A stretch of DNA of 64,000 bases from Halomarina litorea. GTDB lineage: Archaea; Halobacteriota; Halobacteria; Halobacteriales; Haloarculaceae. Position 1 is the stretch's first letter; every line of letters starts with the position of its first letter. Shown here one piece after another: positions 2,480 through 10,891 of this stretch. The stretch covers positions 1,633,655 to 1,697,654 of the forward strand of contig NZ_CP100448.1 in NCBI RefSeq assembly GCF_024227715.1, given 5' to 3'. Under the pieces are notes generated by a model that searched no databases, was not told where the DNA came from, and was given only the letters and a program-made list of their open reading frames with translations. The translations under genes were made by a program, and so were the position numbers.

Positions 2480-3641
2480 ATCCGAGTTTGACAAAGCTCG
2501 GATCTTCGACACCACCCTGCGGGACGGCGAGCAGTCACCGCGGACTTCGTTCTCGTACGACGACAAGCGCGAGATAGCCGCGCTGCTGGACGCGATGAAC
2601 GTCCACGTCATCGAGGCCGGGTTCCCCGTGAACTCGGACGCCGAGTTCGCCGCCGTCCGTGATATCGCTGAGAGTACCGAGACGACCGTCTGCGGGCTGG
2701 CACGCGTCGTCGAGGAGGACGTGGAGGCCGCGCTCGATTCGGGTGTGGAGATGGTCCACGTCTTCGCCTCGACGAGCGACGTCCAACTCGAAGACTCCAT
2801 GCACGCCACCCGCGAGGAGGTGGTCGAGCGGTCGGTCGAGAGCGTCCGCCGGGTCAACGAGGCCGGCGCGGAGGTCATGTTCTCGCCGATGGACGCCACG
2901 CGCACGGACGAGGACTTCCTCGTCGAAATCGTCGAAGCCGTCGACGAGGTGGGCGTGGACTGGATCAACATCCCCGACACCTGCGGGGTGGCCACCCCGA
3001 CGCGCTACATGAAGCTGACCGAACTCATCGCGTCGCACACCGACGGGCGGGTGGACGTCCACACGCACGACGACTTCGGGCTGGCGAGCGCGAACGCGCT
3101 GGCCGGCTTCGAGGCCGGTGCCTCGCAGGCGCAGGTCTCCGTCAACGGCATCGGCGAACGGGCCGGCAACGCCGCCTTCGAGGAGGTCGTCATGGCCGTC
3201 GAGAGCATCTACGGCGTCGACACCGGCATCGACACCACCCGCATCACCGAACTGGCGAAACTCGTCGAGGAGAAGAGCGGCATGCCCATCCCGGCGAACA
3301 AGCCGGTCGTGGGCGCGAACGCCTTCTCCCACGAGTCCGGCATCCACGCCGCGGGCGTCATCGAGAACGCCGCCACCTTCGAACCGGGCATCATGACCCC
3401 GGAGATGGTCGGTGCCACGCGCGAACTGGTGCTGGGCAAGCACACCGGCACCCACTCGGTCCGCCAGCGCCTGCGCGACGCGGGCTACGACCCGAGCGAG
3501 GAGGCCGTACGCGCGGTCACCCGCAAGGTCAAGGACCACGGCGCGGACAAACAGCAGGTCACCGACGACGTGCTGCACGAGTTCGCGGAGAGCGTGGGCC
3601 TGGAGGCCGAACGCGAGCGAGTCACGGAGGGACGGCACTGA
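2408..3641 (+). CDS. leuA: 2-isopropylmalate synthase family protein (5' frame unresolved)
   Basis: LeuA condenses acetyl-CoA with 2-oxoisovalerate, the committed step of leucine synthesis. The uninterrupted frame carries the HMGL-like TIM-barrel signature FDTTLRDGEQSPRTSFSY, then IEAGFPVNSDAEF, the metal-binding HTHDDFGLASANAL and NAFSHESGIHAAG. The product ends at about 390 residues (counting from TTG 2469), so it lacks the C-terminal LeuA allosteric dimer domain of ~500-residue bacterial enzymes. Feedback control by leucine through that domain is therefore not expected. A citramalate synthase role cannot be excluded, but the location next to the leuCDB operon favours leucine. The start is uncertain: TATA spacing points to ATG 2408, which is out of frame by one base; ATG 2343 (upstream of the TATA) and TTG 2469 are in frame. 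Confidence 0.9.
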
Positions 3642-3730
3642 TGGCAGTCCCCCCGCGTTCTCCACGCGACCAGCCCCTGCTGTGCGACGGACGACCCGGG
3701 GGGACCGGCGCGGGCGAAACTTGCCCGGCG

Positions 3731-3746
3731 GGTAACTCTTATACTC
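3731..3746 (+). promoter_or_regulatory. Promoter of the ilvB leader transcript (BRE/TATA)
   Basis: GGTAACTCTTATACTC holds a TATA element (TTATAC, 3739-3744) centred 26-27 bp upstream of the ATG at 3768. This is the canonical archaeal TATA-to-start distance, so the predicted mRNA begins at the leader ATG itself and leaves about 150 nt before ilvB. Confidence 0.65.
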
Positions 3747-3767
3747 GCGGCGGCGAACGGGCGAGTG

Positions 3768-3839
3768 ATGACGCTCACCGACGCTCCCGGCACGCCCGCC
3801 GCGAGCGTCGCGCTCGTGATTATTGTAGGGGCCGCCTAG
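3768..3839 (+). CDS. Candidate ilvB-operon leader peptide (23 aa, branched-chain-rich)
   Basis: ATG 3768 to TAG 3837-3839 encodes 23 residues. Residues 14-23 are VALVIIVGAA, six of ten being Val, Ile or Leu. The two Ile codons are ATT ATT followed by GTA, codons rarely used in the surrounding GC-rich genes where ATC and GTC/GTG dominate. The peptide sits between a promoter and ilvB, in a leaderless position, and its last codons form the 5' arm of a 9-bp hairpin. The layout recalls the enterobacterial ilvB leader peptide IvbL, which also ends in a Val-rich run followed by VGNAP. Function as a sensor of charged branched-chain tRNAs is inferred; nothing here proves translation. Confidence 0.55.
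   Translation: MTLTDAPGTPAASVALVIIVGAA
3801..3817 (+). promoter_or_regulatory. Leader RNA hairpin A
   Basis: GCGAGCG (3801-3807) can pair with CGCTCGT (3811-3817) across the 3-nt loop TCG, with one G-U pair. The stem ends at the first Val codon of the Val-Ile-Ile-Val run of the leader peptide. It may be a pause or competing structure next to hairpin B. Confidence 0.35.
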
Positions 3840-3847
3840 CCCCTACA
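3824..3847 (+). promoter_or_regulatory. Leader RNA hairpin B overlapping the regulatory codons and stop of the leader peptide
   Basis: TGTAGGGGC (3824-3832) pairs perfectly with GCCCCTACA (3839-3847), a 9-bp stem with a 6-nt loop. The 5' arm overlaps the end of the second Ile codon and the Val codon (GTA), and the stop codon lies in the loop/3' arm. A ribosome stalled on the Ile/Val codons would cover the 5' arm and stop the stem from forming. No U-run follows, so if it controls ilvB it may act by pausing, factor-dependent termination or translation rather than as a simple intrinsic terminator. Confidence 0.5.
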
Positions 3848-3918
3848 CCACCTCTCCTGCCGACGGCTTCTGTATCGCGGTTCGACCGACCAGTGACACC
3901 ACCAATGCGAGGAAACTC

Positions 3919-5763
3919 ATGAGCGAGCGCGCGAGCGCGACACGCCCCGACGCGGACGCCGACGCCGAAGACGGCGCGTCCACGTCGGGCGACGACCGAG
4001 GAGAACAGCACCCGACCGATTCCGAGGAGACGGCCCGGACGGCGAGCGGCCGGCCCGTCACCACCGGGGCGCAGGCCGTCGTGGCCGCCCTCGAAGCCGC
4101 GGGCGCGAGACACGTCTTCGGCGTGCAGGGCGGGGCCATCATGCCCGTCTACGACGCCCTGTACGACGCCGACCTGACCCACGTGACGATGGCCCACGAA
4201 CAGGGCGCGTCACACGCCGCGGACGCCTACGGGCAGGTCACGGGCGAGCCGGGCGTCTGCATGGCCACGTCGGGGCCGGGGGCGACCAACCTCGTCACCG
4301 GCATCGCCGACGCCAACATGGACTCGGACCCGCTCATCGCGCTGACCGGGCAGGTCCCCACGGACTTCGTCGGCAACGACGCCTTCCAGGAGACGGACAC
4401 CATCGGCGTCACCCGACCCATCACGAAGGCCAACTACTTCGCCAGCGAGTCCACCACCGTCGGCGACACCGTCGGCGAGGCGTTCGCGCTGGCGGGTGCG
4501 GGCCGGCCGGGACCGACGCTGGTCGACCTCCCGAAGGACGTGACGAACGCCGAGACCGACCGCGGCCCGGAGGAGGGGGCACTCCCCGAGTACTACGAGG
4601 TTCCCGAGGGGGCGAACGAGTCGGCCGTCGAGGCCGCCGCGACCGCCCTCGCGCGCGCCGAGAAGCCCCTCATCCTATCGGGCGGCGGCGTGACGAAGGG
4701 CGACGCGAGCGAGCAACTGCGCGCGTTCGCCATCGACCACGGCATCCCCGTCGTCACGACCATGCCCGGCATCGGGACGTTCCCCGAGGACCACGACCTG
4801 TCTCTGTCGTGGGCCGGGATGCACGGCACCGGCTACGCCAACATGGCCATCTCGCACACCGACTGCCTGCTGGCGGTCGGGACGCGGTTCGACGACCGAC
4901 TGACCGGCGGCATCGAGACGTTCGCACCCGACGCGGCGGTCATCCACGTGGACATCGACGCGGCGGAGATATCGAAGAACGTCCACGCGGACTACCCCCT
5001 CATCGGGGACGCGGGCACGATCCTCGACCAGTTGGCGGAGACGATGCCCGCCGCCTTCGAGGCCGTCGGCACCGGCAGCGACTCCTACGAGGAGTGGCGC
5101 GAGCAGTGCGCGTCCTGGAAGGAAGAGTACCCGATGGACTACGCGACGCCGGACGACCAGCCGGTGAAACCGCAGTTCGTCGTGGAGGCGCTGGACGAAC
5201 TGACGCCCGACGACACCATCGTCACCTCCGGCGTCGGCCAGCACCAGATGTGGGCCTCCCAGTACTGGACGTTCCGCCACCCGCGGACGTGGATTTCGAG
5301 CCACGGGCTGGGGACGATGGGCTACGGCCTGCCCGCCGCAATCGGCGCGAAGATGGCCGCCCCCGACAGGGACGTGGTCTGCTTCGACGGCGACGGCAGT
5401 TTCCTCATGACGCTGCAGGAACTCTCCGTCGCGGTCCGCGAGGACCTCGACGTCACCGTCGTCGTCCTGAACAACGAGGCCATCGGGATGGTCCGCCAGT
5501 GGCAGGACGCCTTCTTCGACGAGCGACGGATGGCGTCGATGTACGGGTGGATGCCTGACTTCGCCCAACTCGCCGAGGCGTTCGGCGCGCGCGGGTTCAC
5601 CCTGCGCGAGTACGACGACGTGGCCGACACCCTGCAGGCGGCCATCGACTACGACGGTCCCTCCGTGGTCGACGCCCACATCGACCCCGACGAGAACGTC
5701 TACCCGATGGTGCCCAGCGGCGGCGACAACAGCCAGTTCGCCCTCTCGGAGGACCAGCTATGA
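3919..5763 (+). CDS. ilvB: Acetolactate synthase large (catalytic) subunit
   Basis: IlvB is the TPP-, Mg2+- and FAD-dependent enzyme that condenses two pyruvates, or pyruvate plus 2-oxobutyrate, in Val/Leu and Ile synthesis. The 614-residue product has an acidic, low-complexity N-terminal extension of about 45 residues. The TPP-binding N domain follows, with the activating Glu in HEQGASHAADAYGQVTG (about residue 94), then the central FAD-type domain. The C-terminal TPP motif is GDGSFLMTLQELSVA to LNNEAIGMVRQWQ (about residues 488-520). A GAGG Shine-Dalgarno-like stretch at 3906-3911 precedes the ATG, as expected for an internal cistron behind the leader ORF. It overlaps ilvN by 4 bp. Confidence 0.97.
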   Translation: MSERASATRPDADADAEDGASTSGDDRGEQHPTDSEETARTASGRPVTTGAQAVVAALEAAGARHVFGVQGGAIMPVYDALYDADLTHVTMAHEQGASHAADAYGQVTGEPGVCMATSGPGATNLVTGIADANMDSDPLIALTGQVPTDFVGNDAFQETDTIGVTRPITKANYFASESTTVGDTVGEAFALAGAGRPGPTLVDLPKDVTNAETDRGPEEGALPEYYEVPEGANESAVEAAATALARAEKPLILSGGGVTKGDASEQLRAFAIDHGIPVVTTMPGIGTFPEDHDLSLSWAGMHGTGYANMAISHTDCLLAVGTRFDDRLTGGIETFAPDAAVIHVDIDAAEISKNVHADYPLIGDAGTILDQLAETMPAAFEAVGTGSDSYEEWREQCASWKEEYPMDYATPDDQPVKPQFVVEALDELTPDDTIVTSGVGQHQMWASQYWTFRHPRTWISSHGLGTMGYGLPAAIGAKMAAPDRDVVCFDGDGSFLMTLQELSVAVREDLDVTVVVLNNEAIGMVRQWQDAFFDERRMASMYGWMPDFAQLAEAFGARGFTLREYDDVADTLQAAIDYDGPSVVDAHIDPDENVYPMVPSGGDNSQFALSEDQL

Positions 5764-6473
5764 GTTCGGACTCCGAGGGCGACGGAGAGCGGAGTACGGA
5801 CCCCGACTCGGTCCCCCGCAAGGGACTGCAGGGTCCCCGTCCCGGGGAACGGACCCGCCCGCACGGGCGGCGGTCCGGACAGGGAATCCGCATCGACCCG
5901 CAGGCAGAGGCGACCCACCAGCCCCGGCGGACGGCCATCTCGGCGCTCGTGAAGAACGAACCCGGCGTGCTGGCGGAGGTGTCCGGCCTCGTCAGTCGGC
6001 GACAGTTCAACATCGAGTCGCTGACCGTCGGGCCGACGACCAACCCCGAGACGTCGCGCATCACGCTGGTCATCGAGGAACCCGACCCTGGCGTCCGGCA
6101 GGTCGAACGCCAGTTGGAGAAGCTCCTGCCGGTCATCTCGGTGCGCGAACTGGGGACCGACGCGGTGCGGCGCGAACTCGTCGTGTTGAAGGTCCACGGG
6201 GACCGACCCGACGAGGTCAACGCCATCACGCAGATGTACGACGGCCGGACGCTCGACGCCGGGCCTCGGACCATCACCGTCGAGATAACCGGCGACGAAC
6301 AGAAGATCGACGACGCCATCGACGCGTTCCGCCAGTTCGGCATCCGCGAACTCGCCCGGACGGGCCAGACGGCCCTCGCGCGCGGCGACGAGTGGACGAC
6401 CCACGCCGAGGAGGAACGCTACGAGCAGTTGCGCAGCGAGACCGACCCGACACCGACCACAGCGGACGACTGA
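5760..6473 (+). CDS. ilvN: Acetolactate synthase small (regulatory) subunit
   Basis: IlvN binds IlvB, stimulates it and confers valine feedback inhibition through an ACT domain. The 237-residue product starts at an ATG overlapping the ilvB stop (ATGA). A poorly conserved charged stretch of ~60 residues comes first. The ACT domain is at about residues 61-135 ([34 protein letters not shown]), followed by the C-terminal ALS_ss_C domain (residues ~140-215). The long N-terminal extension is larger than in bacterial IlvN (~160 residues) and rich in R, D and P. Translational coupling with ilvB is likely from the overlap. Confidence 0.95.
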
Positions 6474-6480
6474 GACTCAG

Positions 6481-7518
6481 ATGACAGACGCAACCATCTA
6501 CTACGACGACGACGCGGAGCACGGATACATCGCGGAGAAGACGGTAGCCGTCCTCGGCTACGGGAGCCAGGGCCACGCCCACGCCCAGAACCTCGCCGAC
6601 AGCGGGGTCGAGGTCATCGTGGGTCTGCGCGAGGACTCTTCCTCGCGCGAGGCCGCACAGGCCGACGGCCTGCGCGTGGCGACGGCCGCAGAGGCCGCCG
6701 CGGAAGCCGAGATTATCTCGGTACTGGTGCCCGACACCGTCCAGCCGGCGGTGTACGAGGAGATAGCGCCCCACCTCGACCCCGGCGACACCCTGCAGTT
6801 CGCCCACGGGTTCAACATCCACTACGGCCAGATCGAACCGCCAGAGGACGTGGACGTGACGATGGTCGCGCCCAAGTCGCCGGGCCACCTCGTCCGCCGG
6901 AACTTCGAGAACGACGAGGGGACGCCCGGCCTGCTCGCCATCTACCAGGACGCGACGGGCGAGGCGAAGAAAGAGGGTCTCGCGTACGCGAAGGCCATCG
7001 GCTGTACCCGCGCGGGCGTCGTCGAGACGTCGTTCCGCGAGGAGACCGAGACCGACCTGTTCGGCGAACAGGCCGTCCTCTGTGGCGGCGTCACCGAACT
7101 CATCAAGGCCGGATACGAGACGCTCGTGGACGCCGGCTACTCGCCGGAGATGGCCTACTTCGAGTGCCTCAACGAGATGAAGCTCATCGTCGACCTGATG
7201 TACGAGGGTGGGCTGGGCGGGATGTGGGACTCGGTGTCCGACACGGCCGAGTACGGCGGGCTGACCCGCGGCGAGCGAATCGTCGACGACCACGCCCGCG
7301 AGAACATGAAGGAGGTGCTGGAGGAGGTCCAGAACGGCGAGTTCGCCCGCGAGTGGATTCTGGAGAACCAGGCGGGACGCCCCGGCTACAACCAGCGCCA
7401 CGCCGCCGAGGCGAACCACGACATCGAGGCGGTCGGCGAGGACCTGCGCGCGCTGTTCGCGTGGGGCGACGACGACTCGGAGCGAGAACAGGAAGCGGAA
7501 GCACCAGCGGACGACTGA
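6481..7518 (+). CDS. ilvC: Ketol-acid reductoisomerase, class I
   Basis: IlvC isomerises and reduces acetolactate or acetohydroxybutyrate to the 2,3-dihydroxy acids used by IlvD. The N-terminal Rossmann domain has [13 protein letters not shown] (about residues 26-38), followed by the cofactor-specificity loop [12 protein letters not shown]. Its Arg and Ser residues favour NADPH by family knowledge. The knotted C-terminal domain has the two-Mg2+ site in [13 protein letters not shown] (Asp192, Glu196), plus [18 protein letters not shown]. An extra acidic tail follows residue ~330. The gene lies 7 bp after ilvN in the same operon. Confidence 0.97.
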
Positions 7519-7522
7519 ACCA

Positions 7523-7822
7523 ATGACAGACGACACACGGCGGAACGGACGCGACGATGAGTACCGACCGACGCTCGGCGAGATGAGCCACACCAACCCG
7601 CAGACCGGCGAGAGCTTCGGCGACGCGATGGTGTACCGCCGCGGGCCGACGGTGGCCGCGGACGGCGGCGAGGCGGAGGCCGTCCCCGCCGACGCCGAGG
7701 AGGCAGCCGAGAGTGACCAGTTGAAGGACGTCGACCACACCCCCGCCCGCGGCGACGTGGACGTGAACCGCGTCCACGAACGCGGCGGGGAGGCGACCAC
7801 CGGAGACGACGTAGAGGAATGA
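7523..7822 (+). CDS. Small acidic protein embedded between ilvC and leuC
   Basis: This 99-residue, D/E-rich product has no recognised domain. It begins 4 bp after the ilvC stop and overlaps the leuC start by 4 bp (ATGA), so it is embedded in the operon and probably translationally coupled. Its most ordered part is [27 protein letters not shown] (shown in pieces: residues ~15-41); the rest looks disordered. I do not know its function. The fixed place between KARI and isopropylmalate isomerase suggests a role tied to the pathway, but this is only inferred. Confidence 0.75.
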
Positions 7823-9294
7823 GCGAGGGGACGCTGTACGACAAGGTGTGGGAGCGCCACCGGGTGCGGACCCTGCCGAGCGGGCAGGACCAGCTGTTCG
7901 TGGGACTTCACCTCATCCACGAGGTGACCAGCCCGCAGGCGTTCGGGATGCTGCGCGAACGCCGACTGGAGGTGGCCCGCCCGGACCTGACGCACGCGAC
8001 GGTGGACCACATCGTCCCGACGTCGAGCAAGGAGCGGCCGTACTCGGACGACGCCGCCGAGGACATGATGGGCGAACTGGAGGAGAACGTCCGCGAGGCG
8101 GGCGTCGAGTTCGACTCGCCCGAGACGGGAAATCAGGGCATCGTCCACGTCATCGGGCCGGAACAGGGGCTGACGCAACCGGGCAAGACCATCGTCTGCG
8201 GGGACTCCCACACGGCGACCCACGGCGCGTTCGGGGCGCTCGCCTTCGGCATCGGCACCTCCCAGATTCGGGACGTGCTCGCCACCCAGACCATCGCGAT
8301 GGAGAAGAAGGCCGTCCGTCGCATCGAGGTCACCGGCGAACTCGGCGAGGGTGTCACCGCGAAGGACGTCATCCTGACCATCATCCGCGAACTGGGCACC
8401 GACGGCGGCGTCGGCTACGTCTACGAGTACGCGGGCGAGGCCATCGAGTCACTGGACATGGAGGGGCGGATGAGCATCTGCAACATGTCCATCGAGGGTG
8501 GGGCGCGCGCGGGCTACGTCAACCCCGACGAAACCACCTACGAGTGGCTCCGCGAGACGGACGAGTTCACGGACAGCGAGGAGCAGAGCTCCTCTGGCAG
8601 CCGGACGAAGTCCGGCGACGACCCGGAACGGTTCGAGGAACTGAAGGAGTACTGGGAGTCCATCCGGTCGGACGAGGACGCCGAGTACGACGACGTGGTC
8701 ACCATCGACGGGTCGGCCATCGAACCCGTCGTCACGTGGGGCACCACACCGGGACAGGGCATCGGCATCTCCGAGCCGATTCCGCACCCGGAGGACCTCG
8801 CCGAGGACAAACAGGACACCGCACGGCGCGCGCAGGAACACATGCGCGTCGAACCCGGCGAGACGATGGCGGGCTACCCCATCGACGTCGCCTTCCTCGG
8901 CTCGTGTACGAACGCGCGACTGTCCGACCTCCGCGCCGCGGCCGAAGTCGTCGAGGGACGACAGGTCCACGAGAGCGTGCGCGCGATGGTCGTCCCCGGA
9001 AGCCAGCGCGTGAAGGCCGCCGCCGAGGCGGAGGGCCTCGACGAGATATTCCGCGAGGCGGGCTTCGACTGGCGCGGTGCGGGCTGTTCGATGTGTCTCG
9101 GCATGAACGAGGACCAACTGGTCGGCGACGAGGCCTGCGCCTCCTCGTCGAACCGCAACTTCGTCGGTCGGCAGGGGAGCAAGGAGGGGAGAACCGTACT
9201 CATGAGCCCGAAGATGGTCGCCGCCGCCGCCGTCACCGGCGAGGTGACGGACGTGCGCGACCTGCCCGAGACGACGGAGGTGACCGGCCGATGA
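7819..9294 (+). CDS. leuC: 3-isopropylmalate dehydratase large subunit
   Basis: LeuC with LeuD isomerises 2- to 3-isopropylmalate using a [4Fe-4S] cluster. The 491-residue aconitase-fold product has [16 protein letters not shown] in place of the usual DH..PT, the [21 protein letters not shown] motif, and cluster Cys residues at about 363 ([12 protein letters not shown]), 423 and 426 (GCSMCLGMN). Relative to bacterial LeuC it carries a Ser-rich insertion near residues 252-270 ([16 protein letters not shown]) encoded by two adjacent palindromes. The start overlaps the upstream small ORF and the stop overlaps leuD by 4 bp. Confidence 0.96.
8578..8615. repeat. Twin inverted repeats inside leuC
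   Basis: GAGGAG (8578-8583) and CTCCTC (8589-8594) flank a 5-nt loop. CCGGAC (8601-8606) and GTCCGG (8610-8615) flank a 3-nt loop. The two palindromes are 6 bp apart and coincide with the Ser/Arg-rich insertion in LeuC. The arrangement resembles an in-frame insertion of a small palindromic element. Confidence 0.5.
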
Positions 9295-9911
9295 GCGAGA
9301 AGGAGGTCCCCCCAATCGAGGAGGTCAGCGGCACGGGCATCCCCGTCCGGGGCAACGACATCGACACGGACCAGATCGTCCCGGCGCGGTTCCTGAAGGT
9401 CCTCACCTTCGAGGGCCTCGGGAAGGCCGCGTTCTTCGACCAGCGCTTCGACGACGACGACGAACCGAAAGACCACCCGTTCAACGACGAACGCTACAGC
9501 GGCGCGAACGTCCTCGTCGTCAACGCCAACTTCGGCTGTGGTTCCTCGCGGGAACACGCCCCGCAGGCGCTCAAGCGCTGGGGCATCGACGCCATCGTCG
9601 GCGAGTCGTTCGCCGAAATCTTCGCGGGCAACTGCCTCGCACTCGGCGTCCCCACCGTCACCGCCTCGCCGGAGGCCGTCGGCGCGTTGCAGGCGCACAT
9701 CGAGTCGGAGCCCGCCACTGAGATTCACGTCGACGTCGAGGGCGAGACGGTCACCTACGACGGCAACGCCGTGGACGTCTCGGTCGACCCCGCCCAGCGC
9801 CAGTCGCTGGTCGACGGCGAGTGGGACACGACGGCGCTCCTCGGGGCGAATCCGGAGGAGGTACGGGCGACGGCCGAGAGCCTGCCGTACGTCGGGAGTG
9901 CGGACCGATGA
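9291..9911 (+). CDS. leuD: 3-isopropylmalate dehydratase small subunit
   Basis: LeuD provides the swivelling substrate-binding domain of isopropylmalate isomerase. The product is 206 residues, the usual length. It has [16 protein letters not shown] near the N-terminus and [19 protein letters not shown] at about residues 80-100, both family signatures. The ATG is inside the leuC stop overlap (ATGA), and the stop overlaps the leuB start in the same way, so the three leu genes are probably translated as a coupled block. Confidence 0.96.
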
Positions 9912-10891
9912 CCGGGGGCCACGACATCGCCGTCGTCCCCGGCGACGGCATCGGGCAGGAGGTCACGCCCGCCGCCGTCGAGGTCCTCGAGGCCCTCGAC
10001 CTCCCGCTCTCGTTCGTCGAACGGGCGGCGGGCGACCACGTCCTCGAATCGCGGGGGACGGCGCTCCCCGACGGCACCCGCGAGACGGTCGAGCGCGCGG
10101 ACGCGACGCTGTTCGGCGCGGCGGGCGAGACGGCCGCGGACGTCATCCTCCCGCTCCGGCGGGCGGTCGACAGTTTCGCGAACGTCCGCCCCGCCCGCGC
10201 GTACCCCGGCGTGGACGCCCTCAAACCCGAGACGGACCTCGTGTTCGTCCGAGAGAACACCGAGGGCGTCTACGCCGGCATCGAGAGCGAGATAGCGGAG
10301 GGCGTCACCACCTGCACGCGCGTCGTCACCGAGGCGGCCTCCCGCCGCATCGCGGAGTTCGGCTTCGACTACGCCGAGGAGCGCGGCTACGACGTGACCG
10401 TCGCCCACAAGTCGAACGTGATGCGCGTCACGGACGGCCAGTTCCTCGACGCGGTCCGCGCCGTGGGCGACGCCCGCGGCGCGGAGTACGACGAGGCGCT
10501 GATGGACGCCCTCGCGATGCACCTCGTCCTCCGTCCCGAGGAGTACGGCGTCGTCATCTGTCCGAACCTCGCCGGCGACATGCTCTCGGACCTCGCGGCC
10601 GGCCTCGTCGGCGGCCTCGGCCTCCTGCCGAGCGCCAACGTCGGTAGCGAGAACGCGCTGTTCGAGCCCGTCCACGGGTCGGCCCCCGACATCGCCGGGC
10701 AGGGCGTCGCCAACCCCAGCGCGATGGTTCTGAGCGCGGCGCTGCTGCTCGACCACCTCGACTACCCCGCCGAGGCCGACCGGGTGCGCGAGGCAGTCGA
10801 GGGCGTCCTCGCGGACGGCCCGCGGACGCCCGACCTGGGCGGTGAGGCGTCCACCGAGGACGTGACGAGCGCCGTCGTCGAGCGACTGTAA
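9908..10891 (+). CDS. leuB: 3-isopropylmalate dehydrogenase
   Basis: LeuB oxidatively decarboxylates 3-isopropylmalate to 2-oxoisocaproate with NAD+ and Mg2+. The 327-residue product starts [19 protein letters not shown] after a short N-terminus. It has the substrate-binding Arg block ([19 protein letters not shown]), [18 protein letters not shown], and [20 protein letters not shown] with the metal Asp residues. Then follow [17 protein letters not shown] and nucleotide-binding loops. The ATG overlaps the leuD stop. It is the last gene of the operon; the next genes are on the opposite strand. Confidence 0.95.

Follow-up and report, generated by a model that had tools for sequence, protein, structure and literature searches.

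Attenuation through leader peptides is a classical mechanism of bacteria. The enterobacterial ilvBN attenuator combines a leader peptide, IvbL, that carries a long Val run, with competing antiterminator and terminator helices. Ribosome-occluded terminators are found in E. coli pyrBI and tnaC, where the signals are UTP and free tryptophan and termination is intrinsic or Rho-dependent. In the actinobacteria Corynebacterium, Mycobacterium and Streptomyces, ilvB(N/H)C is directly preceded by an Ile/Val/Leu short ORF that overlaps a hairpin (PMC1262725, PMC11857589). For archaea, our search of the open-access full-text literature found no leader-peptide attenuator, in agreement with a first-pass annotation of the DNA studied here, to which no described archaeal ilvB attenuator was known. 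On the basis of dRNA-seq in H. volcanii it has been argued that haloarchaea do not typically control translation through structured leaders (PMC4983044), and the authors of the FttA structure pose it as an open question whether transcription and translation are functionally coupled in archaea and whether lapses lead to termination (PMC11616081).

The window analysed here, a stretch of 64,000 nucleotides from Halomarina litorea, contains a short ORF upstream of ilvB that the same annotation had proposed to be an attenuation leader. The TATA box, the ATG at leaderless distance (3768) and the length of 23 codons were reproduced from the sequence, as were the distance of 79 nt from the leader stop to the ilvB ATG at 3919 and the separate GAGG of that gene, whose identity was assigned by the profile TIGR00118. 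The peptide ends in ...SVALVIIVGAA*, and its conserved codon pair ATT-GTA occupies 3822-3827. The operon that follows encodes the ilvBNC and leuCDB products, and the true start of the leuB-like dehydrogenase is probably located after 9911. Mutants of ilvB1 and ilvC in H. volcanii are auxotrophs for Val, Leu and Ile (PMC4300041).

Table 1 Features of the ilvB leader region and operon in the H. litorea window, with the corresponding loci of a second archaeal family (f15).
Feature	Position	Strand	Basis
TATA-like promoter element CTTATAC	3738..3744	+	sequence; 30 nt from hexamer start to leader ATG
Leader peptide ORF MTLTDAPGTPAASVALVIIVGAA, 23 codons and TAG (3837-3839)	3768..3839	+	sequence, frame conservation
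Presumed control codons GTG ATT ATT GTA (Val-Ile-Ile-Val)	3816..3827	+	codon statistics in 154 loci
9-bp RNA hairpin UGUAGGGGC-CGCCUA-GCCCCUACA	3824..3847	+	-16.8 kcal/mol, z -3.2; class-wide conservation
G-free pyrimidine-rich tract directly 3' of the hairpin	3848..3858	+	base composition in 133 loci
Degenerate copy TGTATCG of second motif CGNAYCG, one mismatch	3871..3877	+	motif comparison
SD-like GAGG of ilvB	3909..3912	+	sequence; SD-like motif in 76/109 loci
ilvB, acetolactate synthase large subunit	3919..5763	+	TIGR00118, E 1.2e-211
ilvN, acetolactate synthase small subunit	5760..6473	+	TIGR00119
ilvC, ketol-acid reductoisomerase	6481..7518	+	TIGR00465
leuC	7819..9294	+	TIGR00170
leuD	9291..9911	+	TIGR00171
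leuB-like dehydrogenase	9821..10891	+	TIGR02088, match below curated cut-off
f15 loci: L217, L224, L231, L234, L235, L242-L254			

An RNA hairpin, absent from the first-pass annotation, overlaps the last codons of the leader. Its 5' end is the last base of an Ile codon, its 5' arm is made of the Val GTA and Gly GGG codons, and in the window the stop codon TAG straddles the border between the loop and the 3' arm. No Rfam covariance model scored above its gathering score, and the two sub-threshold matches in 3500-4100 were chance matches.

We searched haloarchaeal genomes with the pattern ATYGTAGGGGYN{1,9}CCCC, whose core is ATYGTAGGGG-n-CCCC, using the reversed pattern as a control. The element was found in 373 of 391 genomes, usually once, and the control gave counts near zero; confirmation of the position 5' of ilvB covers the 171 instances inspected (154 distinct), not each of the 373 genomes. 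ilvB itself is present in 390 of the 391. Without the Ile codon, GTAGGGG-n-CCCC yielded 5-30 matches per strand per genome, with equal or higher numbers for its control. Since this shorter pattern alone is unspecific, the ATY codon belongs to the specificity of the element. At nearly all of the ilvB loci read, the 80 closest from named genomes and those of 8 genomes of the same genus, GTAGGGG, a short spacer and CCCC close a short ORF, which mostly terminates in IVGA or IVGV. GTAGGGG is located at most 700 nt 5' of ilvB in 166 of 179 loci, most of which were found by protein similarity, and the element is present in 15 of 15 genomes of one genus (g34). A search of related haloarchaea for Val/Ile/Leu short ORFs 5' of ilvB, as suggested along with the first annotation, was strongly positive throughout the class.

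Genomes without the pattern were examined through their ilvB loci. Most carry variants. A compensated stem accompanies IVGP in L100, and a different one accompanies IVRAR in L146; further variants are VRAA (L153, L154), LV (L157), VV (L147, L148, L156) and others (L150, L151, L155). G131 truly lacks the element, as do four deep-branching genomes (G028, G223, G290, G386), in which ilvB seems to be located directly behind another gene. In G192 a contig end truncates the locus, and G347 lacks both ilvB and the element.

Some genomes hold more than one leader. In G225, ilvB is present twice, and a separate leader precedes each copy (L145, L163); one leader ends in GIIGIIGIIGAPQ, with six Ile codons, and the other in SGMVGA. 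Two genomes of one genus, G130 and G330, include a second complete leader with its hairpin, and the 1.5 kb downstream of it contain no ilvB (L115, around 1500 on the minus strand; L116, around 1500). These extra leaders, ending in ..GARLIVGV* and ..GTILIVGV*, are candidates for a solitary leader, a relic or a trans-acting RNA.

Evidence that the ORF is a coding sequence comes from the 154 distinct loci. ATGs located 24-110 nt 5' of the hairpin are distributed over the three frames as 198:12:13, and frame 0 is free of stops in every locus. The stop codon lies 3 or 4 codons past the start of the GTA codon in 147 loci, and a few codons later in the other seven, which have lost the loop stop. An open in-frame ATG was found at 45-130 nt in 149 loci and the remaining ones start with GTG. 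In nearly all loci the first base of a TATA-like hexamer precedes the start codon by 29-36 nt, the spacing of a leaderless transcript; such transcripts are the main mode in H. volcanii, comprising 72% of protein-coding transcripts (PMC4983044). The leader ORF and its setting are thus far from chance. Loss of the loop stop with retention of the stem was observed in some Natrialbaceae (L021, L031, L042, L043, L044, L046, L078), whose leaders end a few codons later, e.g. in IVGALSPLI*.

Codon usage at the leader end is distinct from that of ilvB. The codon before GTA (codon -1) encodes Ile in 146 of the 154 loci (ATT in 113, ATC in 33), and codon 0 is GTA in all of them, partly by the definition of an instance. 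Within ilvB itself, at these loci, ATT accounts for 5.7% of the Ile codons and GTA for 0.5% of the Val codons. Val, Ile or Leu is encoded at codon -3 in 64% of the loci and at codons -8 to -14 in 7-21%, compared with 18% in ilvB. Of the Val-rich run at the leader end, the part conserved across the class is only the near-invariant Ile-Val pair (ATT/ATC GTA) at the hairpin base. Lineages in which this pair has changed mostly kept branched-chain residues, such as LV, VV or, in L145 (one of the two G225 ilvB copies), GIIGIIGIIGA.

The remainder of the leader drifts. At its N-terminus the synonymous fraction is 0.353, compared with 0.303 by random placement (42 of 1000), so that purifying selection is marginal only, and a functional microprotein was rejected. 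The N-terminal drift argues that the act of translation, and not a small-protein product, is the function. The resemblance of the peptide end (VGAA) to the enterobacterial VGNAP does not indicate homology, because Gly-Ala is dictated by the hairpin arm.

That same constraint bears on whether IVGA could be an arrest peptide responding to a free amino acid within the ribosomal tunnel, rather than to tRNA charging. TnaC senses tryptophan, and the near invariance of IVGA/IVGV while other leader residues drift would fit such a peptide. We nevertheless regard an arrest peptide as very improbable: Gly-Ala follows from the GGGGC stem, lineages with a changed stem have IVGP, IVRAR or VRAA, in some Natrialbaceae the ORF continues past IVGA where the loop stop is absent, and residues further upstream, the expected tunnel contacts, are not conserved.

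Comparison of the hairpins across haloarchaeal loci revealed several compensatory changes in the stem, with C-G replacing G-C at position 7 (L014) and at position 4 (L146), and a further double change of T-A for C-G at the stem top in L061 and L183. Covariation is sparse because the stem is nearly invariant. Total arm pairing did not exceed that of shuffled arms (892 vs a mean of 889), and variant 5' arms taken alone paired above shuffled ones (171 vs 160; 4 of 1000). Neither the alignment nor the pairing tests revealed a conserved alternative (antiterminator) helix. Such a helix would not be required, as a ribosome could mask the hairpin directly.

GTAGGGG/CCCCTAC is also a palindrome near a promoter, and so might be a DNA operator for a transcription regulator, with the ORF incidental. 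The chance of this seems very small. The palindrome is located 57 nt inside the presumed transcript, and its half-site spacing varies by several nucleotides; loops of varying length, mostly 3-7 nt, fit an RNA and not a DNA operator. Furthermore, there is about one site per genome and no regulon, and an operator leaves the in-frame ATGs, the in-frame stop and the rare Ile-Val codons unexplained.

Directly 3' of the hairpin, comparison of 133 loci shows a tract of C and U in which a uniform U-run is absent. G is mostly at 0-4% over most of the first ~14 positions past the 3' arm, T is raised at positions 8-12, and the first 40 nt past the hairpin are T-richer than the remaining untranslated region. 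TTTTC is present in 32 of the 133 loci, with 3 expected. A second motif, CGNAYCG, was found in 91 of the 133 loci, mostly 18-33 nt past the hairpin, compared with 3 of 133 in shuffled sequence; it is often followed by TTTTC. Further on, the sequence is A/C-rich and weakly conserved, and the gap between hairpin and ilvB is 79-361 nt in haloarchaea. Masking of the ilvB SD through base pairing with the pyrimidine tract was rejected, as the two pair no better than shuffled partners do.

Beyond the haloarchaea, 51 ilvB upstream regions were examined from other families of the phylum. An ATG ORF 13-33 codons long, in which five or more of the last ten residues are V/I/L, precedes ilvB in 18 of 18 genomes of family f15, which we take to be Archaeoglobaceae. 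Such ORFs were found in 0 of 33 genomes of the other families and in 8% of shuffled regions. The f15 ORFs have a TATA-like element 5' of them and end 16-46 nt before ilvB, and their V/I/L runs are longer than the haloarchaeal ones, as in MQTMLNLPVVVVC, ...FSVIIVVVQ and ...GVVILVGIIVVLL. In some f15 loci a hairpin and a T-run are located between leader and ilvB. No convincing His or Trp leaders were found before hisG or trpE in 25 genomes of haloarchaea and f15, and the ilvB leaders are therefore not a by-product of looking. Published H. volcanii uORFs of 26 and 23 amino acids precede HVO_2948 (pheS) and HVO_A0127 (tryptophan-tRNA ligase), respectively (PMC4983044, Table 2), and could be further archaeal leader peptides.

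A strong conserved hairpin followed by a conserved single-stranded tract and the CGNAYCG motif would also suit an element at the mRNA 5' end that serves protein binding, processing or stability and that the leader ORF only protects or unwinds constitutively. This is quite improbable in our judgement, since such an element leaves unexplained the choice of the Ile-Val codons, their rarity, and the choice of the same gene in f15.

Control at the level of translation, in which a stalled ribosome alters access to the ilvB start or leader and ilvB are translationally coupled, is unlikely in haloarchaea, although several observations are compatible with it. By position, leader and ilvB are on one transcript, SD-like motifs occur in 76 of 109 loci, and in the window a helix is predicted between the leader codons just 5' of the Ile codons and the ilvB start. 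Coupling is plausible in f15 because the leader stop is only 16-46 nt before ilvB, but the haloarchaeal gap is the longer one given above. Over about 107 loci, the duplex energy of leader and ilvB start equals that of shuffled partners (-20.23 vs -20.17) and accessibility of the ilvB start is unaffected by occlusion of the leader (0.456 vs 0.461); complementarity between tail and SD likewise equals that of shuffled sequence (5.39 vs 5.47). The helix between leader codons and ilvB start that is predicted from the window by itself is not conserved across loci and was rejected.

We conclude from sequence comparison that this element probably controls the haloarchaeal ilvBNC(-leuCDB) operon by ribosome-mediated attenuation. 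A short ORF is located between promoter and operon, codons for end products of the pathway occupy the critical position, and a conserved hairpin is within reach of a ribosome stalled at Ile-Val. We observe the ORF in its phase, together with conserved control codons, hairpin and tract, and infer from them translation, stalling, tRNA sensing and a transcriptional step. The transcript would begin at or near the leader ATG and be translated as a leaderless message. When Ile- or Val-tRNA is short, the ribosome would halt at the rare ATT-GTA codons, and its footprint would cover the 5' arm, so that no hairpin forms and the operon is expressed; that a ribosome with ATT or GTA in its A site covers this arm is deduced from ribosome size. 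When the tRNAs are charged, the ribosome would reach the stop codon at the loop and leave, the hairpin would form and expression would be cut. Most likely, transcription would terminate prematurely at the hairpin and the U/C-rich tract that follows, and the ribosome itself would act as the antiterminator. The attenuation leader first proposed for this locus is supported to this extent, while stalling control and the step affected are parts of the model.

Published data bear on this model in both directions. In an H. volcanii reporter in vivo, an inserted hairpin ended 59% of transcripts and T5C 95% (PMC7237163), which makes termination at a hairpin and pyrimidine tract plausible, with or without FttA. 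On the other hand, FttA prefers U-rich RNA (PMC11616081), and the C/U tract counts against termination because it is not a clean U-run. In S. coelicolor, a similar-looking ilvB leader acts independently of its control codons, whose replacement had no effect (reported in PMC1262725); anatomy alone is therefore no proof of attenuation. The H. volcanii dRNA-seq study lists 16 uORFs in 5'-UTRs of 150-250 nt, none of them at ilvB1 (PMC4983044). All 16 have a low pI, and the haloarchaeal ilvB leaders mostly contain Arg.

We put at about even odds the broader proposal that true ribosome-mediated attenuation operates both in Halobacteria and, arranged differently, in Archaeoglobaceae as a second class. 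In both, a leaderless leader peptide would read the charging of Ile- and Val-tRNA and decide on early termination before ilvB, and the stalled ribosome would mask the termination signal, possibly excluding FttA. A class-wide element at a genetically tractable gene would offer a direct test of transcription-translation coupling in archaea and of termination upon its lapses. For most haloarchaeal genomes it also means one more conserved small ORF, so far unannotated.

Compared with known systems, the element is a candidate archaeal ribosome-mediated attenuator that would work like the bacterial kind, with no clear poly-U terminator and no conserved antiterminator helix seen. The uORFs in long 5'-UTRs of H. 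volcanii (PMC4983044, Table 2) are likewise short ORFs on the transcript of a downstream gene; unlike the ilvB leaders they all have a low pI, no mechanism was proposed for them and ilvB1 is not among them. The nearest layout is that of the actinobacterial ilvB leaders (PMC1262725, PMC11857589). However, the bacterial terminators are followed by poly-U, whereas the haloarchaeal hairpin is followed by a C/U tract on a leaderless transcript made by an archaeal RNA polymerase, and the haloarchaeal control codons are reduced to a rare Ile-Val pair with the stop at the loop.

The enterobacterial IvbL is likewise a Val-containing leader before ilvB with its control codons near the end, but no conserved antiterminator was seen in the haloarchaeal loci. 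The mode of action that we propose resembles that of E. coli pyrBI and tnaC, where the end of the leader runs into or borders on the termination signal; in haloarchaea, too, the ribosome itself would block that signal.
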